Below are positions 31,718-43,845 of a stretch of 64,000 bases of DNA, in pieces. The stretch spans positions 157,689-221,688 of the forward strand of contig NZ_SLXS01000003.1 of the NCBI RefSeq assembly GCF_004340785.1, given 5' to 3'. The translations under genes were made by a program, and so were the position numbers. The notes under the pieces are model-generated. The model had not been told where the DNA came from. It was given only the letters and a program-made list of their open reading frames with translations, and searched no databases. How positions within the stretch are numbered: position 1 is the stretch's first letter; each line of letters begins with the position of its first letter. This DNA is from Tumebacillus sp. BK434. Lineage in GTDB: Bacteria; Bacillota; Bacilli; Tumebacillales; Tumebacillaceae.

Positions 31718-34700
31718 TTATCCCTGGCGTAAGGTTAGTTCTCGCAAAACTCTAAGCGCAAGAGCCAACAATTGCGCTTCTTTATCCCCACCGCCAATGA
31801 GCCTATTGATATGCAAATGCAGAAACGTCTCCGCCACGCGCTCAAGAAATGTTTCATTTCCTAGCCGAACAATGACCTTCCGATAATCAAAAATCTTGTT
31901 TCGGCGCTCCTCCATGATCCTCGCGATTTCCCCATGAATCCAATCTTCTTTCTCTTCTGCAAGCCGTATCAGTTGACTTCTTTTTTTGGCATATCCTTCG
32001 CGAGACGGTTTCATGGTAACAATCGATTCTAACCAACTCAATTGATCATTCCTGTCCGGAAAGAAGCACGTCATCATGTCCAAAACGGAGAAGACTCCCA
32101 AAGTCTCAAGATCAGCAGATTTACTATTCTTTGAAGAGAAGTCATGCAGAAAAACAGCAAGTCGGCTATCAGCTGCAAAGATTTTTTCAGCAGATTCAAC
32201 CGCCTCGAGTCCCCCGAAACGTTCAATTTCGCGTTCATAGGTGTCATACGACAGACGAAGCAATATCCCCTTTTGTTGCAGCGTGGATGCCCACTGAGCA
32301 AGGAGGGGGATGAGTTGATGGACCAGCAGTGAAGACTGACCATGGAATCGGAGACGAAGATGAGGTTCGGGTTCATCGAAACGAATGTAGTAAAACTCTT
32401 CGAACAATGCTTTGCTGAGGGCTTGTTCGCAAAATGCTTTTAGGTGTTTCCTCAGAAATTCATTCTGCTGACGATGCGGAATATAGAGCTTTGCGTAAAG
32501 CCACTCACTGCCTGTGAAAAAGGTTCTGTCTTTGATCTCACAGTCCGGCAGATATGTGCCCCACCTCAACTCCCTTGCTTCGGTCACGGCAGCAGCATCT
32601 GCTTTTTTTAGAAATGGAAAAACAAATTCGGTTGCATGACGCCCAACAGGCCCCTGACACCAAGACCCTTGCGGATCATAACAACATTCGGTCAAGGTGA
32701 GATACTGATGTTCTGTAAGTTTGTTGAACGCGTTCTGCAAAAGAGCGAAGTGGAGCTCATTATCCAAATCAAGCATCATCCGCTGATCTTCCTCAACAAG
32801 ATAGAGATAACGAGGTACCTTCCATTCCTCTCTCCAAGTTTGAAGATTCGAGAACTTTGACAGCCTCCATTGGGCCGGGGCGATCACGATCCTTTTGTAT
32901 CGGAGGCGTGGCAGGAATGGCGCCTGTTTCATATTCCCCCAATTCATGGGTTCCCACTGTTTAGATCGTTCGGTTGCTAGTTCCAACAGAAATCGATACA
33001 CATTTGGCACACCCACCAGATTCAACATGTGGTTGGTAACAGGAATTACTTCCCGATTGAGTGATCTTGATTTCAGGTAGAAAAATTCACCTGTACAACC
33101 GACCAGCAAATCTTCTAATGAAATCACGCGTTGATCCTGGTCCGAATGAAAGACACCTAACAGGATCTGGAAATCCCTTGAAGCCTGTGTAATGGTTAAG
33201 TTGGCATCGCGGTCTGTACATGGGAGAAAGATTACCTCGGCAAATATTGCTTCTGGCCGATGTGACTGTTCGGCCTGATGAATTTGCAGAAACTGTTCTT
33301 GCAAATTCAATTGTTCCGTCAGACTGAATCGCCCGAAACTTTTCCCCGCACCAAAAGAGCCGCTGTTTTCATTCAGCCATATCAAATAATCTCCACTGTT
33401 CAACGCTTCGACAGACTGCGCTTCAACAGAAGCATACAATTCCATGGAAAGCGGTGAGTGTGCAAACTTTGGCGGTACAGATTCAAGATTCGCTAATGTA
33501 TCGTCAGTGAGTTCGACTTCCAACTGCCGTTTTGCCACAGCCTGCATCGCCAAAGTCGTTACATACGTCTCCCGCATCCGGGATTGAGTTGCTGGCTTGG
33601 GATCGTATTCGCGATGGCCGGCAGGAAATTTGTAGAGTGCAGGAGAACCTAACCCCACCTCATCGTCCAGCAATTCTAGCAATGGCACTTCACGATCTCG
33701 ACCATATCGCTCCAAAAAATCATTTCGAAACCCTTGGAGATGCGGATTGCCAACCTGTCGGCAGGACAATCTCCAGATGATCTCGGCCGCGGCCTCCAGT
33801 TCTTTTTTGATCGATCCCGGCAGAGCGACCTCACATCCGTTTAACATGACATCCACTTGCAAAGGATGCTTCACATCTGCGAGGTCTTTCATCGATTTGC
33901 TTAGTTCCAAATATGTTGCTGTTCCTGTTCCCATTGGAATGTGATGATAGCTGGCAAGATCTCTGGAGACTGCCGCAAGCTTTTCCGTAATCTCGTCAAT
34001 CCCTTCGAGCGATACCAAAAGGTCCATCAAACGTGTGAACGGATGCTTGTTCGACAGTGAAGAACGCAATTCTGAGATCAAATATTCACGTTGAAGAAGA
34101 TCCTCTAGAAATCTGCGGACTTCCTTAAGATTGGCTTGTGTAAAACGGGCAGCTATTCGTTCCGTTAATGTTTCAAACGCGATCGGCTCTCCAGCTTCTT
34201 GTAGCGCAAATTCAACAGTTTGAGAACGATGCAGAGAACTTCTCATCAATGCGTGATGTTGCTCAGCTCTGCCGTACCTGTTCACATAGGGGAGTCTGAT
34301 CTTATTCCCCGCTAGATAGACGGCCGGGTTTGTTTGCACTCGTAATTGACGAATCAGTTCCGGCCGCGATTCAAGTTCCCTGATCAATCTCAATGTCCAT
34401 TCCATATCCGGCCTGGCATGCTTCTGATAAGAATCGAGCTGGGAGAACTGGAAAGCAGCCTGTTCCCTGTATCCGCCAACAGCGACCCCGGCAAACAGCC
34501 CATAGGGAGTGGGGCGTGTCGTCATCCTGATCAGATATCGAAGCAGGCTGTTTTCAATCTGGCTTCTTTTTCGGGGCTTGATTTCTTGTGATAGGCAGGA
34601 TAGAGAGTCATATAGTGAAGGACTTGCTGCGGCCAGCGCCTCGAGAACCGGTTTCTCTTCGAATGCACGATAAAGGTCCGCTGCCTTAACCGTATTCTCC

Positions 34701-34789
34701 CATACTTCTACTGGGAAAACGTTTGCCCGCACCAAATAAAAATCAGCAAGTCCGTATCGTCCGGCATTCCCCCAAGAAGTCTCGTTCAT
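31718..34789 (-). CDS. class I lantibiotic dehydratase (LanB), full length
   Basis: A 1023-residue enzyme with both parts of LanB. The N-terminal glutamyl-tRNA-dependent glutamylation domain (~1-740) shows RYLIRMTTRPTPYGLFAGVAVGGY. The C-terminal elimination (SpaB_C/thiopeptide-type) domain (~755-1015) shows EFYYIRFDEPEPHLRLRFHG and FLHLHINRLIGG. It should dehydrate Ser/Thr of the precursor to Dha/Dhb. GGAGG 11 nt upstream lies in the end of the radical SAM gene, whose stop is 6 nt away. No LanC cyclase or LanP protease gene follows. The gene is AT-rich relative to its surroundings, consistent with horizontal transfer. Confidence 0.95.
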   Translation of the reverse strand: MNETSWGNAGRYGLADFYLVRANVFPVEVWENTVKAADLYRAFEEKPVLEALAAASPSLYDSLSCLSQEIKPRKRSQIENSLLRYLIRMTTRPTPYGLFAGVAVGGYREQAAFQFSQLDSYQKHARPDMEWTLRLIRELESRPELIRQLRVQTNPAVYLAGNKIRLPYVNRYGRAEQHHALMRSSLHRSQTVEFALQEAGEPIAFETLTERIAARFTQANLKEVRRFLEDLLQREYLISELRSSLSNKHPFTRLMDLLVSLEGIDEITEKLAAVSRDLASYHHIPMGTGTATYLELSKSMKDLADVKHPLQVDVMLNGCEVALPGSIKKELEAAAEIIWRLSCRQVGNPHLQGFRNDFLERYGRDREVPLLELLDDEVGLGSPALYKFPAGHREYDPKPATQSRMRETYVTTLAMQAVAKRQLEVELTDDTLANLESVPPKFAHSPLSMELYASVEAQSVEALNSGDYLIWLNENSGSFGAGKSFGRFSLTEQLNLQEQFLQIHQAEQSHRPEAIFAEVIFLPCTDRDANLTITQASRDFQILLGVFHSDQDQRVISLEDLLVGCTGEFFYLKSRSLNREVIPVTNHMLNLVGVPNVYRFLLELATERSKQWEPMNWGNMKQAPFLPRLRYKRIVIAPAQWRLSKFSNLQTWREEWKVPRYLYLVEEDQRMMLDLDNELHFALLQNAFNKLTEHQYLTLTECCYDPQGSWCQGPVGRHATEFVFPFLKKADAAAVTEARELRWGTYLPDCEIKDRTFFTGSEWLYAKLYIPHRQQNEFLRKHLKAFCEQALSKALFEEFYYIRFDEPEPHLRLRFHGQSSLLVHQLIPLLAQWASTLQQKGILLRLSYDTYEREIERFGGLEAVESAEKIFAADSRLAVFLHDFSSKNSKSADLETLGVFSVLDMMTCFFPDRNDQLSWLESIVTMKPSREGYAKKRSQLIRLAEEKEDWIHGEIARIMEERRNKIFDYRKVIVRLGNETFLERVAETFLHLHINRLIGGGDKEAQLLALALRVLRELTLRQG

Positions 34790-34795
34790 ATGACG

Positions 34796-36160
34796 TTACG
34801 CCTCCGTTTTATGAAAAGTGGCTTGACGGTATCGCAAGCTCACATAATCTTCGAGTTTGCTTTTCAGCGGAGGACAGGGCCGAGCGCTTTCCTGTTCAAT
34901 CCGCACCAGTGGGCAGTATGCGCCATGGCAGATCGGGTGCAATTTGCACGATTGACACACTTTGTCGGAAAGTCCGTCCACCGACACCCACTGACTAAAC
35001 TTCATCTGATCAAGCTCCAACACACCGTCTGCATGCAGTTGCCCGACTTGATTGACCGGATTATTAAAAGCGACTGTACACTTGTAGATCATACCGTCAG
35101 AACCGATGACTAGAGAATTCGGTTTCGCTGCGTAACAGACGTTGTGATTTAGCAATGCATCCGAATACTTCTCTGAGTGAAGTCCCTGTTCGAGCCCGTA
35201 CCATGTTTCTTCCAATGCGATCAGGTTTGCATCTTTTGCTGTGCAAACAGGCAGGACTTCATCATTTTTACCGCCCCATTTCCCAACCGCATGCAAGTCA
35301 AATGTAAAGCGTGCGTCTGTTCCAAACGTCGTGACCAATTCATCCAGAAACACTCTGATATTCGGGGCATTTTCACTGGTAAAATTCATACGAATTTTGA
35401 TTTGTACGTCCAAATCAGAATCTCGGATGGAGATCAGGTTCGTCATGATTTGTTGATACGTGCCTTGCCCTCCCATTAAAATCCTGGTCTGGTCATGATA
35501 TTCTTCCGTACCGTCCACTGTAATTTGATACTTTGATACTCCCAGTTCAAACAATCTGCGAGCGCGATCGACCGTCAGCAAATATCCGTTTGTCGTCATG
35601 GTACCTAGAAAAGCTACACCGTTTGCAGTACAAATGTCATACAGTTTTTGGGATACATTCTCCACGACATCATACGCAACCAACGGCTCTCCCCCAAACC
35701 AACCTACCGTTAGAAAATCCCACTTCTCGATATTTCGTTGCACCCACTGAACCAAACTGCTTTGCAACTCTTCAGACATTTTCCCTTTCAAAAATTCCTC
35801 GTAGCAGTAAACACAGCGAAAGTTGCACTGCTCCGTAGGCATGATGATCAGTTGCTGTGAGGTTCCTTTATTGAACAACTCCTGATACTCGTGGCGGGTA
35901 TAGGCCAGCTCATTCAGATAACTCGGAACCAGAAATCCCAAATCAAATAATTTGGCGTGAGTATCCTGCAACGGGACGGCTGATTCGTAGTGATTTTGCA
36001 AGGCTGTAAAAGAAGCCGGTGACGTGATCATCTTGCCCGATGCGGTATTGTAGAGTAGGAACTTCCCTTTCGTATAATCATTCGGTTGGATTTCCACGTT
36101 ATACATCGACCACTTCACCTGATCCAAAATTGTCGTGCTTACTGCTTGGTTTTTGAGCAT
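34796..36160 (-). CDS. SPASM-domain radical SAM peptide maturase
   Basis: A 454-residue enzyme starting at ATG 36160 (MLKNQAV) behind AGAAGGGGTG; the longer open frame reads back through the precursor region and is not used. Residues 1-100 look like the N-terminal peptide-binding region of such maturases. The radical SAM cluster motif is EQCNFRCVYCYEEF (~115), with GEPLVAY-type GGE motif (WFGGEPLV). The C-terminal SPASM region has KCTVAFNN, VCQSCKLHPICHGAYCPL and a final CPP, enough Cys for auxiliary clusters. Enzymes of this type form thioethers or carbon-carbon crosslinks on RiPP precursors. It is between the precursor gene and lanB. Confidence 0.93.
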   Translation of the reverse strand: MLKNQAVSTTILDQVKWSMYNVEIQPNDYTKGKFLLYNTASGKMITSPASFTALQNHYESAVPLQDTHAKLFDLGFLVPSYLNELAYTRHEYQELFNKGTSQQLIIMPTEQCNFRCVYCYEEFLKGKMSEELQSSLVQWVQRNIEKWDFLTVGWFGGEPLVAYDVVENVSQKLYDICTANGVAFLGTMTTNGYLLTVDRARRLFELGVSKYQITVDGTEEYHDQTRILMGGQGTYQQIMTNLISIRDSDLDVQIKIRMNFTSENAPNIRVFLDELVTTFGTDARFTFDLHAVGKWGGKNDEVLPVCTAKDANLIALEETWYGLEQGLHSEKYSDALLNHNVCYAAKPNSLVIGSDGMIYKCTVAFNNPVNQVGQLHADGVLELDQMKFSQWVSVDGLSDKVCQSCKLHPICHGAYCPLVRIEQESARPCPPLKSKLEDYVSLRYRQATFHKTEA

Positions 36161-36196
36161 AGGTGCACCCCTTCTAATAGTCTTGTAAAGAGGAGA

Positions 36197-36225
36197 GGGG
36201 CCGGAAGTTACACTTCCAAGCCCCC
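36197..36225 (-). terminator. hairpin between precursor and maturase genes
   Basis: Stem with GGAAGT / ACTTCC at the loop and GGGGC / GCCCC at the base, located in the 79-nt gap after the precursor stop. Such attenuators let the short precursor gene be transcribed more than the enzyme genes. No strong T-run follows, so it would be a partial terminator or an mRNA stabiliser. Confidence 0.55.
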
Positions 36226-36239
36226 AAAAATTCATAGAA

Positions 36240-36341
36240 TCAACCGCACCCGCAGTTATTGATCGTGTTGGTTTTGTTTCGATCAGCCGGGATCTCGTTG
36301 ATCTCTTCGACTTCTTCAAATACAACGAATTGCGCCTCCAT
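36240..36341 (-). CDS. RiPP precursor peptide (33 residues) ending NCGCG
   Basis: ATG at 36341 with GAAGGAGGGAG upstream. The leader part MEAQFVVFEEVEEINEIPAD is acidic, and the last 12 residues are NKTNTINNCGCG. Thr24 and Thr26 could be dehydrated by the LanB, and Cys30 and Cys32 could form (methyl)lanthionine, sactionine or other thioether bonds with them or with neighbours. It is the first gene of the operon, directly before the SPASM maturase and LanB, which is the normal place for a RiPP precursor. Its size and the two-Cys tail differ from known lantibiotics. The core boundary is inferred. Confidence 0.85.
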   Translation of the reverse strand: MEAQFVVFEEVEEINEIPADRNKTNTINNCGCG

Positions 36342-36509: not shown

Positions 36510-36952
36510 TTATTTCACTCCAACGCACTCTTTCGCAAACTCCAACGTAAGCTCGATGATCACGTGCATCTTCTCGTCGTCCGCCAGAATGTCAAAAACA
36601 TACGAGCCGCCTGAGCCGCCCCAGAAGACGCATTGGGCGAAGTCTTTGGCGTCTTTCAGCTTGGCCGTGGATGAAGAGGACGGTGGGACGCAGTTCAATT
36701 TCGCCTTCGTAGTAGATCGGCAAGTTGTACAGGCAGATTTTTTTCTCCTACTTGTCGACGGCCGCTTCTTCGCCGCTGCATCCGGCGAGTGCGCCCAGCC
36801 TCGGCCCCAGCACAAAACCGAAGTTTACCGACCAACTGTAAACTCATCGCCCGCACGATCGTCGTGATGATCGTCCCAAACAGCAGCGTGTAGCGAATCG
36901 GGTGAAATCCGCCAAAATAGCCATTCTTCAAACGTTCCAACATCAGATGCAC
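36510..36952 (-). pseudogene. decayed gene with MFS-transporter remnants
   Basis: On the minus strand from 36952 the first ~36 codons read like the N-terminus of a multidrug MFS protein (MERLKNGYFGGFHPIRYTLL, with RAMSL after). Beyond that, the recognisable text jumps between frames: an exporter motif (VNFGFVLGPRLGALAG), an internal TAG, then KICLYNLPIYYEGEIELRP and, in a third frame, DAKDFAQCVFWGGSGGSYVF to a stop at 36510. No single frame covers the region. The first part is a truncated transporter; the origin of the C-terminal part is unknown. It marks the right boundary of the RiPP locus. Confidence 0.6.
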
Positions 36953-37024
36953 ACATACAACGAATTAATTGAAATTTTTACTAGTTTTGATTCTACCAGT
37001 AGCAATGACATTTTCAACAACAAC

Positions 37025-37059
37025 ATAAAAACGGACTCGGGCACCCGCCCGAATCCGTT
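37025..37059 (-). terminator. terminator of the unit-1 MFS gene
   Basis: Minus-strand stem AAACGGATTCGGGC with its complement (one mismatch) and a GGGT loop, followed by TTTTTA, 27 nt after the MFS stop. Confidence 0.85.
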
Positions 37060-37085
37060 TCCCGCCGCCATTTCTTACCTTCCCC

Positions 37086-38348
37086 TTACACCGCCTGCGT
37101 CTCTTCTGCCAACCGGTTGCTTTCCAACTTCCCTTTCAGCCACAGCATCAGCCCGGCGGCCGACACCACGCAGATCGCGGCCAGCATCCAGCCGCCGATC
37201 GCGCTGGGAATGAAGCCGCCGATCGCCGAGAACAGCGGGAGCGAGATCCCGTAGGCCAAACGCGACATCGACAGCCAGGTCGCGACGACGCGGCCGCGCA
37301 GCTCCGGCTTGGAGTAGGTCATCAGCGAGGTCTCGGTGATCACGTTGACCTTCGACTGGAAAATGTTCGCGAGCAGCATCACCGCGAAGAACAGATACCA
37401 GTTGTGGATGATAAACATACAGCCAAGACCGATCCCGTAGAGCATGTTCGACGGGAAGTAGATCTTGAAATACGAGCTGTCATCAAACTTGCGTTTCTTA
37501 AAGTACTGTTTGAGCAGGAAGGCCCCGATTACATACGCCACCGCCGTCACCGAATAGCCGATCCCGACGCCGGCATCGCCCGCTTTCAACTCATTGAGCA
37601 CATACAGCGGGAAGAGGATGTAGATGAAGCCGAGGCAAAAATCGCGGAAGAACTGCAGCCAGAAAACGCCGACCAGCTGCGGGCATTTTTTCACAAAATC
37701 GATGCCTTCTTTCACCTGCTTCAGGTACGGCGGGCGCACCACCGCTGGCTTAGCGAGCGGCTGATACTTGATCAGCGCAATGAAAACCGCCGACACCACA
37801 TAGGAGAACGCATCGAAATACAGGATGTTCACCGCTCCGATCCACTGTGCCAAAAACCCGCCCAAAGCGCTCGCCAGCACCATCGTGGTCGAGTTGAGCA
37901 GCGCGAACGACGAAGTCGCCGCGATCAGGTTCTGCTCTTTGAGAATCTCCGGGATCATCGACGTTCTCGCCGGCTGAAACGCTGCCGACGCAAACGCGCC
38001 AAACGCGATGCAGACGTAGATCACCCAGATGTTTTCGATCATCACCCCGGCGATGATCCCAAGCGTCGAGAACACGCGCAGGATGTCAATCCAGATCATC
38101 AGGTGCTTCTTGTTCCAGCGGTCGACGAACGGACCCATGACGATGCCGCCGAACAGCACCGGCAGGACGCTGGCGATAAACAGGCCGCCGATCGAAGCCG
38201 CATGGGGCACGATCGCATAGATGACGGAGATCAGCGCGATCGTTTTAAACCAGTCGCCAAACAGCGAAATCATCTGTCCGAAATAAAGCATGGTAAAATT
38301 GCGGTTTTTAAACGGAGACGGCAATTTCTCCGCAGTCGCAGTGGACAT
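37086..38348 (-). CDS. MFS exporter of Trp-peptide unit 1
   Basis: A 420-residue MFS_3/EntS-like permease: FKNRNFTMLYFGQMISLFGDWFKTIALISV, MGPFVDRWNKKHLMIWIDILR, AAFQPARTSMIPEIL and GRVVATWLSMSRLAYGISLPLFS. It is a close paralogue of the unit-3 MFS at 42046 (same motif at nearly every loop). It follows the unit-1 HemN-like gene by ~90 nt, with a hairpin in between. AAAGGGGGG precedes the ATG. The repeated pairing with peptide and radical SAM genes suggests it exports the modified peptide. Confidence 0.9.
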   Translation of the reverse strand: MSTATAEKLPSPFKNRNFTMLYFGQMISLFGDWFKTIALISVIYAIVPHAASIGGLFIASVLPVLFGGIVMGPFVDRWNKKHLMIWIDILRVFSTLGIIAGVMIENIWVIYVCIAFGAFASAAFQPARTSMIPEILKEQNLIAATSSFALLNSTTMVLASALGGFLAQWIGAVNILYFDAFSYVVSAVFIALIKYQPLAKPAVVRPPYLKQVKEGIDFVKKCPQLVGVFWLQFFRDFCLGFIYILFPLYVLNELKAGDAGVGIGYSVTAVAYVIGAFLLKQYFKKRKFDDSSYFKIYFPSNMLYGIGLGCMFIIHNWYLFFAVMLLANIFQSKVNVITETSLMTYSKPELRGRVVATWLSMSRLAYGISLPLFSAIGGFIPSAIGGWMLAAICVVSAAGLMLWLKGKLESNRLAEETQAV

Positions 38349-38397
38349 GTCCAGCCCCCCTTTTCCCCAAGCCTGACGGGATCAGCAACAAGCAAAG

Positions 38398-38431
38398 ACC
38401 AGCATGAAGCATCGGGCATCTTCATGCTGGT
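38398..38431 (-). terminator. hairpin between HemN-like gene and MFS gene (unit 1)
   Basis: An 11-bp perfect stem ACCAGCATGAA / TTCATGCTGGT with a 12-nt loop, followed by CTTTGCTTG, so it is probably a leaky terminator. A hairpin is found at the same place in unit 3. Confidence 0.6.
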
Positions 38432-38437
38432 AAACGC

Positions 38438-39799
38438 TTATTGGATGATCGCAAGCTCGGTGTTTTCGTAGAAGTCTTTGTCCTTTTGCATCACGTCGAC
38501 ATAGGCGTCGTACGTTTTCTTCTGCGCTTCCGGCAGCAGGTCGATCATGACGTGCATGTACCAGATCTTGCCGAGCTCGGTCAGCTTCAGCAAACCGTCT
38601 TCGCGCACGACCAGCCCCATTTTTTCGTGCTTCTCGATCTTCTCCCAGTACTCGGACGGCAGGTCGTGCTGACGCAGGTACTCGAGGCTGACTTTCATAT
38701 GTTTCGGGAAGTAGATCAGGCCTTTTTCTTTCGCCTGGTATTCTTTCGCGCGCATGACCGGCAAGGTGCCGTTTTCAACGGCGCGGATGTACTCGTCGGT
38801 CTTCACGCTGTTCATGTGCGACATGCCGCTCAGGTAGGAAGCGGCCGCCTGGCCGCAGCCGATGTATTCGTCTTCGTAGCGGCCGTAGATCGTCGCGCCG
38901 AATTTGAAGTCTTTGTACGCCGCATCGCCTTTGGCAAAGGTGTAGATGTGCGTCTGCTCATAGCCGTGGTTGAGCAGGTAGGAGTTGACGAATTGATGCT
39001 GGAGCACTTTGTCGTCCGCTTTCGGCGGCTCCGGCACTTTGCCGTCTTTGATCATGTTCAGGAAGCCTTTCGAGGTCACAAGGTACTCTAGCGGATAAAC
39101 GTCAACGGTGGTGGTGGACAGCTGACGCACGTTTTCGAGGTCCTCGTGCAGTTGCTCGATCGTCTGGCCCGGCAGTTGATACAGCAGGTCCATGTTGTAC
39201 GCTTTGAAGTACTTGTCGGCGAGGTCGCGGGTGCGCTTGATCTCGTCGAGCGATGCGGTCAGGTTGAACAGTTTGCGGTAGTACGGGTTAAACGTCTGCA
39301 CACCGAAGGAGATCCGGTTGACACCGTTCGCCGCCATCGCTTTCAGTTTGTCTTCCGTAGCGCTCTTCGCTTCGACCTCGAAGCTCCACTCGATGTCGTC
39401 CTTGAGCGTAAAGTTCTCCTGGATCGTCGTGCAGAGATCTTCGATCATCTTCGGGGACAAGACGGAAGGCGTACCGCCGCCGACATAGACTGCATCAAGC
39501 TTCAGCTGCTTGACGTACGGCGTGCTGGCGATGGCTTTCAACTCTTTCAGCAGCGCATCCACGTAAGGCTGCAGTTTGTCTTGGTAGTTCGTGGAGCGGA
39601 TGAACGGACAGAACGTGCAAATCGTGTCACAGAACGGAATGTGGACATAGAGCGATTTCGTTCCGGGCAGCGGCGTGCGCGCCGAGTTCAAAAATTGACG
39701 AACGGTCTCCACCGGTTCCGGCCCTTCTTGAATGAACGGGTAGAGATAGTTCCACATGTTAGGCAGCTTTTTGTAGGGCAATGCGTTATGCTGCGACAT
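38438..39799 (-). CDS. HemN-like radical SAM protein of Trp-peptide unit 1
   Basis: A 453-residue radical SAM protein with a HemN/HemW-type arrangement: YVHIPFCDTICTFCPFIRS (cluster CxxxCxxC, ~60), VYVGGGTPSVLSP, GVNRISFGVQTFNPYYRKLFN, and YNMDLLYQLPGQT. The C-terminal ~90 residues form a HemN_C-like winged helix (YWEKIEKHEKMGLVVREDGLLKLTELG). It is closer to HutW/ChuW and class C radical SAM methylases than to heme-synthesis HemN. It is paralogous to the unit-2 protein at 40296. Three tiny Trp-peptide ORFs lie directly upstream, so they are likely substrates. RBS AAGGGGG is 10 nt before the ATG. Confidence 0.88.
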   Translation of the reverse strand: MSQHNALPYKKLPNMWNYLYPFIQEGPEPVETVRQFLNSARTPLPGTKSLYVHIPFCDTICTFCPFIRSTNYQDKLQPYVDALLKELKAIASTPYVKQLKLDAVYVGGGTPSVLSPKMIEDLCTTIQENFTLKDDIEWSFEVEAKSATEDKLKAMAANGVNRISFGVQTFNPYYRKLFNLTASLDEIKRTRDLADKYFKAYNMDLLYQLPGQTIEQLHEDLENVRQLSTTTVDVYPLEYLVTSKGFLNMIKDGKVPEPPKADDKVLQHQFVNSYLLNHGYEQTHIYTFAKGDAAYKDFKFGATIYGRYEDEYIGCGQAAASYLSGMSHMNSVKTDEYIRAVENGTLPVMRAKEYQAKEKGLIYFPKHMKVSLEYLRQHDLPSEYWEKIEKHEKMGLVVREDGLLKLTELGKIWYMHVMIDLLPEAQKKTYDAYVDVMQKDKDFYENTELAIIQ

Positions 39800-39885
39800 C
39801 TTTGTAAGTACCCCCTTTTCGTGATCAGGGGCTGACAGGGGTCGCCCCCTGTCAGCCGGTATGTGAACTGCCGGGCCCTGCTATG

Positions 39886-39915
39886 TTAAGCAGCTACGAT
39901 GATCCACTCGCGCAT
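39886..39915 (-). CDS. 9-residue Trp peptide MREWIIVAA (unit 1)
   Basis: ATG with GGAGAGGGGGAG 5 nt upstream, closed by TAA after nine codons: MREWIIVAA. The ending WIIVAA is identical to the ending of the 26-residue unit-2 peptide. It is the last of three tiny ORFs before the HemN-like gene (87 nt from its start). Too short for homology proof; the shared motif plus the ribosome site are the support. A regulatory leader peptide remains possible. Confidence 0.65.
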   Translation of the reverse strand: MREWIIVAA

Positions 39916-39978
39916 GGTTGCTCCCCCTCTCCGTCCTTACGGTTCGACGCAGCAAAACGGGATTTGCAGGAAGCCGGA

Positions 39979-40038
39979 TTACGCTTCCACCACAACGACA
40001 GAAATCCACTCCGCTACCGGAAGCCATTTTTGCATCAT
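39979..40038 (-). CDS. 19-residue Trp peptide with two Trp motifs (unit 1)
   Basis: MMQKWLPVAEWISVVVVEA, starting at 40038 or the next Met, with AGAAGGGGG 4-5 nt upstream. It contains two Trp segments (KWLPVAE and WISVVVVEA) spaced like the repeats of the unit-2 peptide. It lies between the 10- and 9-residue ORFs. Proposed substrate of the HemN-like enzyme. Confidence 0.6.
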   Translation of the reverse strand: MMQKWLPVAEWISVVVVEA

Positions 40039-40090
40039 CGGCACCCCCTTCTGGAATCATTTTCGACGCTTTGATGAAACACAGAAGGAA

Positions 40091-40123
40091 CTACTCAGCC
40101 GCGACGACGATCCATTGTTTCAT
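40091..40123 (-). CDS. 10-residue Trp peptide MKQWIVVAAE (unit 1)
   Basis: ATG with GAGGAGGT 7 nt upstream, ending TAG after ten codons: MKQWIVVAAE. The motif W-I-V-V-A-A repeats that of the other peptides. It is the first ORF after the unit-1 promoter (27 nt from the -10 box), so it is well placed for strong expression. Confidence 0.65.
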   Translation of the reverse strand: MKQWIVVAAE

Positions 40124-40149
40124 TCCGCGCACCTCCTCGTTTCGCTTAC

Positions 40150-40177
40150 GTTATATCTCTATTTAAGGGTAAAGCAA
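40150..40177 (-). promoter_or_regulatory. promoter of Trp-peptide unit 1
   Basis: Minus-strand TTGCTT, 16-nt spacer, TATAAC, just upstream of the first peptide ORF and downstream of the unit-2 terminator. Confidence 0.5.
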
Positions 40178-40252
40178 ATTATTACACGCGTTTTCAATGA
40201 TTAACTGAAAATTATTTTGTTTTGTCCACCTAAATGCTTGATGTAAATAAAC

Positions 40253-40282
40253 ATTAAAAAACCGGACTGCACGCAGTCCGGT
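40253..40282 (-). terminator. terminator of Trp-peptide unit 2
   Basis: Minus-strand stem ACCGGACTGC / GCAGTCCGGT followed by TTTTT. It directly follows the unit-2 HemN-like gene, which therefore has no MFS gene of its own. Confidence 0.88.
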
Positions 40283-40295
40283 GGCTTTCTTCTTA

Positions 40296-41660
40296 TTAAG
40301 CAAAGACGATCAGCTCGTCGTCGAACGTAAATTCTGCCCGTTCGTTCAGCGTGGCGGAGATCGTATCGTGCAGGTGTTTCGTGCGCTCCGGCAGCATTTC
40401 GATCATCATGTTCATGTACCACGGCTGGCCTTCGCGGGTCAGCTTGAGCAGATTGCCGTCGCGGACGATCAGGCCTTTTGCTTCAAACTCATCGAGCTTC
40501 TCGTAGTAGCGGGCATCGAGCGCCAAGCGGTCGATGTCGTCGATGTCGATCGACATCCGCTTCGGGAAGTAGATCAGTCCTTTTTCGATCGCGTGGTACT
40601 CATTGACGATATCCGCGCCGAAGCCCGTCTCTTCGACCGCTCGGATGTAAGGTTCCACCTGATCGAAGTTGCGGTAGACGAGGCCGGCCTGATACGAGAA
40701 CGCCGAGAGCCCGGCACCGATGCACTCATCTTCGTAGTGGCCATACAAGGTCTCGCCAAAGACGAAACGCTTGTGCTCCGCATTCTGGCGGATAAACGTA
40801 TAGATGAACTCCTGGCCGTAGCCGTGCTCGATGAGGAAGTTCGTCACCACTTCCTGCTGGGCGACTTTCTCATAGGCGTTCGGCGGTTTCGGCAGGCGTT
40901 CTTTTTTGATCGACTGCAGGAAGCCTTTGGAGGTGATCGTGTAATCGAGCGGGTAGGCGTCGATCGAGGTCGTGTTCAGATCGACCGCATGCTGCAGGTC
41001 TTCCAGAATCTCATCGATCGACTGGCCCGGCAACTGGTACAGCAGGTCCATGTTAAACCCTTTGAAGTACTTCCCGGCCAGTTCGCGGGTGCGCTTGATC
41101 TCGTCGTGCGAGGCGGTCAGGTTAAACATCTTGCGGTATTTCGGATTGAAGGTCTGCACACCGAACGACATCCGGTTGACGCCGATCTCATGCATCGCTT
41201 TCAGTTTGTCTTCGGTCGCGCTTTTCGCCTCGACTTCGAACGTCCACTCGTAGCCTTCTTTCAGCTTGAAGTTGCTGTGGATCGTCTCGCCGATCTGGTG
41301 AATCTGCTCCGGCGAAAGCACGGAAGGCGTGCCGCCGCCGACAAAGATCGCATCGAGCGCAACGCCTTGCATGCGCGGGGTGCCGGCGATCGACTTCAGC
41401 TCTTTGACCAGCGCGTCGACGTACGGCTGAAGCTTGTCCTGATAGTTGGTGGAGCGGACAAACGGGCAGAACGTGCAGATCGTGTCACAGAACGGCACGT
41501 GCATGTACAGCGTCTTCTTGCCACGGTTCGGCGCCGGCTGCTGCAAAAACTGGCGCACATGTTCGACCGACAGCTCGCCGCGCGAAAGATACGGATACAG
41601 GTAGACCCACATCTTCGGCAGGCTGGAAAAAGGCAATTCTTTCGATCCGGAATGGGACAT
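40296..41660 (-). CDS. HemN-like radical SAM protein of Trp-peptide unit 2
   Basis: A 454-residue paralogue of the unit-1 enzyme. It shows the same YMHVPFCDTICTFCPFVRS cluster motif, FVGGGTPSVLSPEQ, GVNRMSFGVQTFNP and FNMDLLYQLPGQS, plus a HemN_C-type end (RYYEKLDEFEAKGLIVRDGNLLKLTREGQPWYM). ATG at 41660 is preferred, with AGAGGAGG 10 nt upstream; the open frame extends 16 codons further without a ribosome site. The 26-residue triple-repeat peptide gene lies 150 nt upstream in the same transcript. Reaction unknown; a C-methylation or crosslink of the Trp repeats is a hypothesis. Confidence 0.88.
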   Translation of the reverse strand: MSHSGSKELPFSSLPKMWVYLYPYLSRGELSVEHVRQFLQQPAPNRGKKTLYMHVPFCDTICTFCPFVRSTNYQDKLQPYVDALVKELKSIAGTPRMQGVALDAIFVGGGTPSVLSPEQIHQIGETIHSNFKLKEGYEWTFEVEAKSATEDKLKAMHEIGVNRMSFGVQTFNPKYRKMFNLTASHDEIKRTRELAGKYFKGFNMDLLYQLPGQSIDEILEDLQHAVDLNTTSIDAYPLDYTITSKGFLQSIKKERLPKPPNAYEKVAQQEVVTNFLIEHGYGQEFIYTFIRQNAEHKRFVFGETLYGHYEDECIGAGLSAFSYQAGLVYRNFDQVEPYIRAVEETGFGADIVNEYHAIEKGLIYFPKRMSIDIDDIDRLALDARYYEKLDEFEAKGLIVRDGNLLKLTREGQPWYMNMMIEMLPERTKHLHDTISATLNERAEFTFDDELIVFA

Positions 41661-41810
41661 GTGGATAACGCCTCCTCTTTTTGAACTTTCTGAAAGTTGT
41701 GTGTTCATGCGTCATGTATGTGATAACTCAATGAGTTCGAACGCCGTTAAGGAAAGACGGAGCGAGAACCGCGGTTCCCCCTCCGTCGACGAGAGATTCG
41801 ATCCCCGCCA

Positions 41811-41891
41811 TTACGCCGCTACGATGATCCAGTTGCGCTCTTGCACAACGATCCAGTTGCGTTCAACCGCAATGATCCAGTTCTTTTCCAT
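41811..41891 (-). CDS. 26-residue peptide with three tandem Trp repeats (unit 2)
   Basis: ATG with GGGAGGTG 7 nt upstream, ending TAA. After MEK the peptide consists of three units: NWIIAVER, NWIVVQER and NWIIVAA. The DNA repeats with a 24-nt period (AACTGGATC each time). A tandem-repeat substrate peptide with one Trp per repeat is what multi-core RiPP precursors look like. It sits under a near-consensus promoter and before the HemN-like gene. Products of nearly the same sequence are encoded in unit 1. Confidence 0.8.
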   Translation of the reverse strand: MEKNWIIAVERNWIVVQERNWIIVAA

Positions 41892-41936
41892 GACTTACAC
41901 CTCCCGTCGTTGATTAATTATTTAATGCTTGAAGTA

Positions 41937-41965
41937 ATTATATTTCTTAGAAACTATCTTTTCAA
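41937..41965 (-). promoter_or_regulatory. near-consensus promoter of Trp-peptide unit 2
   Basis: Minus-strand TTGAAA, exactly 17 nt, TATAAT, located 46 nt upstream of the 26-residue peptide start. It is one of the best sigma-A-type promoters in the window. Confidence 0.78.
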
Positions 41966-41977
41966 TAGTTAGTTTCT
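41949..41977. promoter_or_regulatory. candidate operator over the unit-2 promoter
   Basis: Perfect 8-bp inverted repeat AGAAACTA / TAGTTTCT with a 13-nt centre, straddling the -35 box. Inside it AACTAT / ATAGTT gives a second partial symmetry. It would suit a dimeric regulator, but none is encoded beside it. Confidence 0.5.
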
Positions 41978-42011
41978 ATTTTAATTTTTATCAACAAAGT
42001 TCGACAAAGCA

Positions 42012-42047
42012 AGAAAAGAAAAGAACCCTGATCGAATCAGGGTTCTT
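42012..42047 (-). terminator. terminator of Trp-peptide unit 3
   Basis: Minus-strand stem AAGAACCCTGAT / ATCAGGGTTCTT with a TCG loop, followed by TTCTTTTC. It closes the unit-3 MFS gene. Confidence 0.85.
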
Positions 42048-43311
42048 ACGCTTGCAATGTCGTTTTTTCTTTCATCTGGCTGGTGAGCCTTGCTTTCAGC
42101 CACGGATAGACGCACAAGGCTGAAATCACGCAGACGGCAGTCAAGAGGTAGCCGCCGACAGCGATCGGGATGTAGCCGCCGATCACCGAAAACAGCGGGA
42201 GCGAGATCGCATAGGCCAGGCGCGACGCAGTCAGCCACGAGGCGACGACGCGGCCGCGATTGTCCGCCCGCGAGTAAGTCATCAGCGAGGTTTCGGCGAT
42301 GATGTTGACGCCTTGCGAGAAAATGTAGGTCACGACCAGCGCGACGAGGAACCAGTACCAGCCCGTCATCGAAAACATGACGCCGAGCCCCACGCCGTAG
42401 ATGATGTGGCAGGGCAGGAAAATTTTGAAAAAGGCGCTTTCCTCAAACGGCTTGCTTTTGAAATACCACCTGATCAGCCACGCCCCGATCAGATAGGCCA
42501 CCGCGGTCATCGAATAGCCGATGCCCATGCCGGTATTGCCCGTCTGCACCACTTCGAGGATGAAGACGGCGAACAGGATGTAGACATAGCCGAGCACAAA
42601 GTCACGGGCAGCGGTGATCCAAAAGACGGCGACCAGCTGCGGCGTGGCTCTGACATAGTCATAGCCTTCCTTCACCTGCTGCCAGTACGGCAGGCGCTGC
42701 TTGACCTCTTTTTGCAGCGGCTGGTAGCGCATCAGCCAGATGCAGAAGGCGGCGAACAGATAGGAGAACGCATCGAACAGCATGATCGGGTACGGTCCGA
42801 CCCAATCGGCGACAAAACCGCCCAAAGCGCTGGCGACGACCATCGTCACCGAGTTCAAGATCGCGAACGACGACGTCGCTTTGACGATCTGGTTCTCTTG
42901 CACGATCTCCGGAATCACCGCCGTGCGCGCCGGCTGGAAGGCGGCAGAAATGATGCTGGAGATCACCATCAGGCCGTAGATCACCCAGATGTCCGCCAGA
43001 TAGACGCCCCAGACGATCCCAAGGGTCAGCACGAAGCGCAGCAGGTTGGTCCAGATCATGATCTTCTTTTTGTTCCAGCGGTCGACCAGCGGGCCGACGA
43101 AGATGCTGCCAAACAGCGAAGGCAGAATCGTGGCGATAAACATGCCGCCGACCGTCGAGGCGGAGGGATGCAGATCGTAGAGCACGACGATCATCACCAC
43201 GCCGCGGAACCAGTCGCCAAACAGCGAGACGAGCTGGCCGAGGTAGAGCATCGTATAATTGCGATTGCGGAACAGGGAAGGCTCTTTGGCTACCGCTTTG
43301 GGACTGCTCAT
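42046..43311 (-). CDS. MFS exporter of Trp-peptide unit 3
   Basis: A 421-residue MFS_3/EntS-like permease, paralogue of the unit-1 exporter: FRNRNYTMLYLGQLVSLFGDWFRGVVMIV, VGPLVDRWNKKKIMIW, AAFQPARTAVIPEI, GRVVASWLTASRLAYAISLPLFS. ATG at 43311 with AAAGGAGG 9 nt upstream; the open frame extends 13 codons further. It follows the fused peptide/HemN_C ORF by 68 nt with a hairpin between. Confidence 0.9.
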   Translation of the reverse strand: MSSPKAVAKEPSLFRNRNYTMLYLGQLVSLFGDWFRGVVMIVVLYDLHPSASTVGGMFIATILPSLFGSIFVGPLVDRWNKKKIMIWTNLLRFVLTLGIVWGVYLADIWVIYGLMVISSIISAAFQPARTAVIPEIVQENQIVKATSSFAILNSVTMVVASALGGFVADWVGPYPIMLFDAFSYLFAAFCIWLMRYQPLQKEVKQRLPYWQQVKEGYDYVRATPQLVAVFWITAARDFVLGYVYILFAVFILEVVQTGNTGMGIGYSMTAVAYLIGAWLIRWYFKSKPFEESAFFKIFLPCHIIYGVGLGVMFSMTGWYWFLVALVVTYIFSQGVNIIAETSLMTYSRADNRGRVVASWLTASRLAYAISLPLFSVIGGYIPIAVGGYLLTAVCVISALCVYPWLKARLTSQMKEKTTLQA

Positions 43312-43335
43312 GAGAATTCCTCCTTTATCAGGTAC

Positions 43336-43372
43336 GCGAAAAGCCAGCACACAGGGGGTTCCCGCGTGCTGG
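43336..43372 (-). terminator. hairpin between HemN_C fragment and MFS gene (unit 3)
   Basis: Minus-strand stem CCAGCACGCGGG / CCTGTGTGCTGG (one G-T pair), followed by CTTTTCG. The position and the CCAGCA motif match the unit-1 hairpin, as expected for duplicated units. Confidence 0.6.
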
Positions 43373-43379
43373 ATGCCGC

Positions 43380-43721
43380 TTATGAAAGCATGATCAATTC
43401 GTCGTCAAACGTGAAACCGGTGCGCTCGTCCAGCTTCTCCGTGCCGAGGTCATGCAAGGCGCGTATCCGCTCCGGAAGCATCTCGATCATCATGTTCATG
43501 TACCACGGCTGGCCTTCGCGGATCAGCTTGACCTTGCCGTCTTTCCGCTTGATCAGGCCTTTCGCTTCGAACTCGACGAGCTTCTCGTAGTAGCGCACGT
43601 CGAGCTCTTGGCGGTCGATGTCGGCGATGTCCATCTCCAGCCGTCTGGCGAATGCAGCGGGACTCGTGTCCCCCGATCCGCCCACTTCCCGCGGCTCGAT
43701 AACCCAGGAGTTGCGTTCCAT
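43380..43721 (-). CDS. Trp-peptide start fused to a HemN_C domain (truncated radical SAM gene, unit 3)
   Basis: A 113-residue ORF with GGAGACGGGAG upstream of the ATG. It begins MERNSWVIEPRE, resembling the Trp peptides (ERN-W-I pattern), then a Gly/Ser linker, and from about residue 27 matches the C-terminus of the unit-2 HemN-like protein almost residue for residue (DRQELDVRYYEKLVEFEAKGL; EGQPWYMNMMIEMLPER; FTFDDELI). The cluster-binding catalytic domain is missing. The simplest origin is a deletion that joined a peptide gene to the end of the following radical SAM gene. The intact frame, ribosome site and promoter mean it may still be made, perhaps as a binding or regulatory protein. Confidence 0.75.
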   Translation of the reverse strand: MERNSWVIEPREVGGSGDTSPAAFARRLEMDIADIDRQELDVRYYEKLVEFEAKGLIKRKDGKVKLIREGQPWYMNMMIEMLPERIRALHDLGTEKLDERTGFTFDDELIMLS

Positions 43722-43765
43722 TACTCCCGTCTCCTGATATTAAATATTTTAGTAGTAATAGTGTT

Positions 43766-43794
43766 AGTATAGTCTGTATACTCCAAATAGGCAA
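43766..43794 (-). promoter_or_regulatory. promoter of Trp-peptide unit 3
   Basis: Minus-strand TTGCCT, 17-nt spacer, TATACT, 45 nt upstream of the fused ORF. Confidence 0.6.
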
Positions 43795-43805
43795 CCATAT
43801 TTTCC

Positions 43806-43845
43806 CATAAAATAAGCGGCCTTGAATTTGCATTCAAGGCCGCTT
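43806..43845 (-). terminator. terminator of the M16 peptidase operon
   Basis: A 14-bp minus-strand stem AAGCGGCCTTGAAT / ATTCAAGGCCGCTT with a short loop, followed by ATTTTATGG. It separates the peptidase genes from Trp-peptide unit 3. Confidence 0.9.

Follow-up and report, generated by a model that had tools for sequence, protein, structure and literature searches.

An open reading frame (ORF) of 113 codons on the minus strand at 43380..43721 of the window, the whole 64,000-nt stretch of Tumebacillus sp. BK434 DNA analysed here, joins a Trp-peptide-like start and a linker to the tail of a HemN-like radical SAM (rSAM) paralogue that we call HemN3. We are rather confident that this fusion is the remnant of an in-frame deletion inside a peptide 3-HemN3-exporter unit, and that its DNA probably still matters as a leader.

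Organization of the locus

The fusion ORF lies beside two units with the order peptide-enzyme-hairpin-exporter, all on the minus strand. Unit 2 comprises peptide 2 (MEKNWIIAVERNWIVVQERNWIIVAA, 41811..41891), a hairpin that is conserved in T. avium (41756..41787) and the HemN/HutW-like rSAM enzyme HemN2 (40296..41708, likely start ATG 41660 after GAGGAGG). It is followed by peptides 1a (MKQWIVVAAE, 40091..40123), 1b (MQKWLPVAEWISVVVVEA, 39979..40035) and 1c (MREWIIVAA, 39886..39915), a second HemN/HutW-like rSAM enzyme, HemN1 (38438..39799), and the MFS exporter MFS1 (37086..38348).

The fusion ORF has an ATG start, begins MERNSWVIEPREVGGSGDTSPAAFARRLEMDIADID and continues to its end without an internal stop. 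Codons 1-23 (43653..43721) open with MERNSWVIE, like the start of peptide 2, and go on with PREVGGSGDTSPAA (codons 10-23), whose origin is untraceable. Codons 24-113 (43383..43652) are the last 90 residues of HemN3, in which the winged helix is without its helix 1. Upstream of the ORF there is a Shine-Dalgarno-like AGGAGACGGGAG. The promoter-like site nearest to the ORF, TTGCCT-17-TATACT (43766..43794, minus strand), is a weak match (9/12), and promoter-like sites are no commoner in this upstream region than in shuffled sequence. A terminator-like hairpin 3' of an M16 peptidase gene (43814..43845, minus strand) forms the upstream boundary of the unit. On the other side, a hairpin (43344..43372) precedes the gene for the MFS exporter MFS3 (42046..43311; likely start ATG 43311, ORF opening at 43350), which has the same direction and begins after a gap of 68 bp. 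Since no promoter-like site was found between the fusion and the exporter gene, we infer that a transcript runs from the one into the other. A preliminary description of this DNA had considered promoter, ribosome site, frame and downstream exporter all to be kept; the last three are present, and the promoter match is weak.

Peptide-like start and linker

Codons 1-9 of the fusion match the start of peptide 2 of T. avium, MEKNSWII, which stands beside the orthologous enzyme. T. avium is the nearest named relative, and G006, a genome of the same genus, was taken as T. avium. The peptide ahead of the HemN2 orthologue is MEKNSWIINVEKNSWIINERNWIVVQERNWIIVAV in T. avium and MSWIIHERNWIIIEN in a further genome of the genus, G005, compared with peptide 2 in this window. 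At the DNA level, the pattern of ATG followed by E-basic-N-S/T-like-W occurs a single time in this genome, at the fusion; among six relatives it was found once in T. avium, in peptide 2, and once in G001 at an unrelated place. Because the pattern is so rare in this genome and the six relatives, chance is a poor explanation of the peptide-like start. The ORF is real and begins like a Trp peptide, as had been proposed. Compared with a Trp-peptide type of RiPP precursor, which is short, lies beside the enzyme and has an E/N-W-I/V-x-V-like core, the fusion contains NSWVI once, like NSWII in T. avium, and 104 further residues. One Trp repeat of the peptide is kept, and the 14 residues of untraceable origin follow it.

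The 42-nt linker (codons 10-23) gave no match above shuffled sequence on either strand to units 1 and 2, HemN2, the exporter or the M16 gene. An origin from the old peptide-enzyme spacer hairpin was rejected, the linker folding at z = -1.3 versus z = -3.9 and -2.8 for true spacers.

Paralogue identity of the HemN-like tail

The tail aligns with residues 380-469 of HemN2 over 90 ungapped codons (E=9e-32, 66% identity), and nothing of HemN2 residues 1-380 was found in the fusion. Identity of the tail to HemN2 of this genome, G006 and G005 is 66%, 66% and 63%, respectively, compared with 81-82% among the three orthologues themselves over the same stretch. The dS between the tail and HemN2 of its own genome is 0.84, compared with 0.44 between this genome and G006. 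In a tree the tail stands next to the HemN2 group, although support for this position is weak (57-64). The equal distance to all HemN2 orthologues, together with the larger dS, argues for an older third paralogue rather than the unit-2 copy, so that the tail derives from the diverged HemN3. We also considered a recent copy of unit 2 and rejected it; with 73 differences in 270 nt, the DNA of the tail is only about 73% identical to that of HemN2, and the tail is equally far from all orthologues. No other copy of HemN3 was found in this genome or in G005 and G006.

In the model of HemN2, a HemN-type enzyme, the last helical domain starts at residue 373, and the fusion begins at about residue 381. 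The fusion therefore has no barrel and no CxxxCxxC motif, and its C-terminal domain is without the earlier part and without the first helix of the winged helix. Pfam HemN_C (PF06969) scores 16.9 bits on the fusion, below the cut-off of 24, and matches positions 24-66 of the 67 in the profile; HemN2 itself is barely over the gathering score, at 24.9 bits. With neither a CxxxCxxC motif nor a SAM barrel, the fusion falls outside the HemN-like radical SAM enzymes, and lacking both, its product cannot be an enzyme. What had been described as the HemN_C end of the unit-2 enzyme is therefore a HemN-like tail, but one that comes from a diverged paralogue (63-66% identity) and does not contain an intact domain.

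Distribution in related genomes

Both same-genus genomes, G005 and G006, have the gene order found here: M16 peptidases, exporter, peptide 2, HemN2, peptides 1, HemN1, exporter. The locus is syntenic, the fusion ORF is absent from it, and the M16 gene is separated from the exporter by ~100 bp. MFS3 is 86-89% identical across all three genomes. The fusion was not found in 6 other genomes of the family, 14 of the order and 398 of the class Bacilli, and in these 398 genomes all other matches to the tail sit in full-length frames of 453-506 codons. Neither the fusion nor its tail was found on viral contigs and plasmids, the single plasmid match being a full enzyme. The fusion is thus unique among the genomes examined and does not recur in relatives, where the preliminary description had proposed to look for it. 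The preliminary description would have taken uniqueness combined with a broken frame in close relatives as a sign of decay only; in the relatives the gene is absent, not broken.

The hairpin in the M16-exporter gap of the relatives resembles the fusion-exporter hairpin, the match being reached by 1 of 500 shuffles for G006 and 16 of 500 for G005. The G005 gap hairpin also resembles the HemN1-MFS1 hairpin (2 of 500 shuffles), to which the fusion-exporter hairpin is less closely similar. These likenesses are modest, and the two arms of a hairpin are not independent. They are supportive, although not conclusive, of an ancestral peptide 3-HemN3-hairpin-exporter unit from which the enzyme was lost fully in the relatives and partly here.

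Origin of the fusion

The fusion has exactly both ends of a peptide-enzyme-hairpin-exporter unit and is absent in relatives, which supports an in-frame deletion. A deletion between peptide and enzyme genes had been suggested before, and the unit order is in agreement with it; the enzyme was the third paralogue and not that of unit 2. We propose that an ancestral Tumebacillus would have possessed, upstream of the two units seen today, a third one consisting of Trp peptide 3, a spacer, HemN3, a hairpin and an MFS exporter. A deletion of ~1.3 kb, a size estimated from HemN2, would in this lineage have fused the beginning of the peptide gene, in frame, to HemN3 codon ~381. The relatives would have lost peptide 3 and HemN3 wholly, with the exporter alone left. 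Transcription from the old peptide promoter would be accompanied by translation of the remnant and so continue into the exporter gene without polarity, and the exporter could thereby serve the adjacent unit 2. Such a role for MFS3 is probable, as unit 2 has no exporter downstream of its own. The promoter, the ribosome site and the translated open frame leading to the exporter probably still matter as DNA, while the fusion protein itself probably does nothing.

Some observations count against a deletion remnant. This genome and G006 are closest relatives, so that two separate complete losses (or a regain) would be needed. The hairpin similarity is modest and the promoter match weak. The frame is intact and the dN/dS of the fusion branch is 0.29 (95% bootstrap 0.12-0.60), compared with 0.22-0.25 for the HemN2 branches, which could mean either a recent deletion or retained function. 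This value rules out free drift along the whole fusion branch, which has been constrained for most of its length. As the deletion may be younger than most of that branch, the value does not distinguish between the two.

Alternative explanations

It is possible, though somewhat doubtful, that the fusion is pure junk, a recent deletion scar without effect that is due to decay and whose open frame reflects chance (1 in 3) and recency. Its absence in relatives agrees with this. Under simulated neutral decay, the chance of no stop was 60% at 5% divergence, 37% at 10% and 14% at 20%, so that a recent scar would still look open. However, the fusion has a promoter-like site on one side and a conserved exporter gene on the other, and for this reason its DNA at least probably acts as a leader.

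A functional fusion, in which the HemN tail is a carrier that holds the single Trp repeat, or offers this tethered substrate to HemN1/HemN2, or else serves as a decoy titrating both, is improbable. The intact frame and the dN/dS of 0.29 would be consistent with it. With AlphaFold, residues 21-113 were predicted fairly confidently to form a winged-helix-like fold and the peptide end to be disordered, but this was so in one of five models and from an alignment of 5 sequences, and a fold search with this model gave weak winged-helix matches only, with E above 0.2. In NocN, the C-terminal domain provides most of the active-site substrate contacts, and a second substrate lies in its helical cavity (PMC12871812); the premise that a HemN C-terminal domain can touch a peptide is therefore reasonable. 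That much of the earlier idea of HemN_C as the place of peptide binding stands, but with helix 1 and all of the earlier C-terminal domain missing, a NocN-like substrate surface is mostly absent from the fusion. In addition, 4 of 13 family-invariant residues are altered, the fusion is restricted to one genome, and its single Trp repeat is followed by the untraceable linker. We consequently do not adopt the reading as a natural peptide-carrier fusion, or that as a tethered substrate or a decoy, which the preliminary description had put forward. It is quite improbable as well that the product works in trans as a catalytically dead HemN tail with its own Trp substrate, either holding HemN1/HemN2 or being modified while tethered, to yield a regulated or chimeric product.

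An assembly or sequencing artefact joining two repeats would fit the single assembly and the repetitive units, but it is very unlikely, since with 73 differences in 270 nt the tail is too diverged from HemN2 to be collapsed, and the site is deep inside the 742 kb contig C3 of the Tumebacillus genome.

Comparison with known systems

NosN/NocN and TbtI are radical SAM methylases of class C (HemN-like) that belong to RiPP pathways. HemN2 resembles NosN/NocN in its HemN-type CxxxCxxC motif, and its only sequence matches in the PDB are HemN (1OLT) and NocN (9P2U); the HemN2 model has HemN (1OLT) as its best PDB match, which extends along nearly the whole length. The fusion, unlike class C methylases, has no catalytic part. 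The system also differs from NosN/NocN/TbtI in that the precursors here are apparently leaderless, with 9-35 residues, and stand beside an MFS exporter, in that there are no thiopeptide genes in the unit, and in that methylation is putative. The target of NocN/NosN is an indole derived from Trp within a peptide, and a leader is not required (PMC12871812). By analogy, our guess would be that the enzymes here modify the Trp indole of the peptides.

HemN1 and HemN2 belong to the HemN-like radical SAM superfamily, with PF04055 matches at E=2e-18 and 6e-19, a HFCDTICTFCPF-type CxxxCxxC motif and, for the HemN2 model, a TM of 0.71 to 1OLT. Their best NCBIfam match is HutW/ChuW (TIGR04107), at 203 and 220 bits over nearly the whole length, without reaching the curated cut-off of 400. 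HutW/ChuW is a heme-degrading radical SAM methyltransferase. HemN1 and HemN2 differ from it in scoring far below 400 bits and in having peptides and an exporter as neighbours, not heme uptake genes. HemN2 gave only weak general HemN-like matches against phages. A related HutW-like radical SAM gene is also found on the Glaesserella parasuis plasmid pD74 (L075 1204-3139), where its companions are genes for a P450 and an MFS protein and a speD-like gene, and upstream lies a 24-aa ORF ending ...NNVAW; a Klebsiella plasmid (L074) has a similar rSAM-P450-MFS set that a transposase gene interrupts.

Biarylitides have what PMC12951456 describes as the smallest precursor peptide reported. They share with the units here extremely short precursors (5 residues in their case) beside one tailoring enzyme, but this enzyme is a P450 and not a radical SAM protein, and the sequences are unrelated. 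Chimeric pseudogenes formed by deletion between neighbouring genes likewise have the front of one gene and the tail of the next in one frame with the middle missing; the fusion differs from them in that its frame has stayed open and runs on towards a conserved gene.

A recurring peptide-enzyme-exporter module

Apparently leaderless Trp peptides of 9-35 aa, a HemN/HutW-like rSAM enzyme and an MFS exporter recur together at 36900-43800 of the window and at loci L027, L028, L031, L064-L066, L072 and L073. These cover three genomes of the Tumebacillus type, one other genus in the same family, three genomes from two different families of Bacilli, and Cytobacillus and Alicyclobacillus plasmids. We found no NCBIfam family for the module and no account of it in the literature searched. 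Trp peptides with a ribosome site stand just upstream of related enzymes in G363 (MSNEWISVKNEWIAV, twice), G240 (MRQSTEWFTV) and G204 (MRQVNEWVAL), and those on the plasmids are MKKEWVALKNEWVAL (Cytobacillus kochii) and MRDIVWDIVW (Alicyclobacillus sp. TC). Four Trp peptides lie 3' of the exporter in G003. In a set of 36 Trp residues, the Trp is commonly preceded by E/N and followed by I/L/V, with V at position +3. Peptide and enzyme are separated by a hairpin. No Trp peptide was found near the HemN1-like enzyme and exporter of G001, G002 and G004.

Several further features were observed. Upstream of HemN1 in G005 (L028) there is a series of six or more tiny ORFs, one after the other, namely MIKEWLTVVEA twice, MIKEWLSVGTSDVEF, MIKEWIPVVEL, MKNWLPIGDTKGF, MREWILVGVTIE and MREWIIVAA, which is a strong amplification of peptide genes. 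The promoter region directly 5' of the enzyme, TTGACAAACATAAAAA, is conserved at L029, L030 and L032, the loci of G001, G002 and G004. Among remoter HemN-like homologues (33-36%) at L067-L071, four of five (L068-L071) have MFS genes and another large set of conserved genes as neighbours. At 31718-36341 of the window, a second RiPP-like cluster of a different kind lies next door, with a LanB-like lantibiotic dehydratase that has a thiopeptide-type C domain, a radical SAM/SPASM protein similar to TIGR04463 and an ORF of 33 aa, MEAQFVVFEEVEEINEIPADRNKTNTINNCGCG.

With a peptide start at one end and an enzyme tail at the other, the remnant shows that tiny ORFs and HemN-like enzymes belong together in a single unit. 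The fusion alone would be an ordinary deletion remnant, mostly a record of the loss of a unit in which the paralogous enzyme was removed and the exporter kept. We believe that the module deserves more attention than the fusion. If free peptides of 9-15 residues are what the HemN-like enzymes modify, these would be RiPP enzymes of unusual simplicity that could easily be reconstituted.
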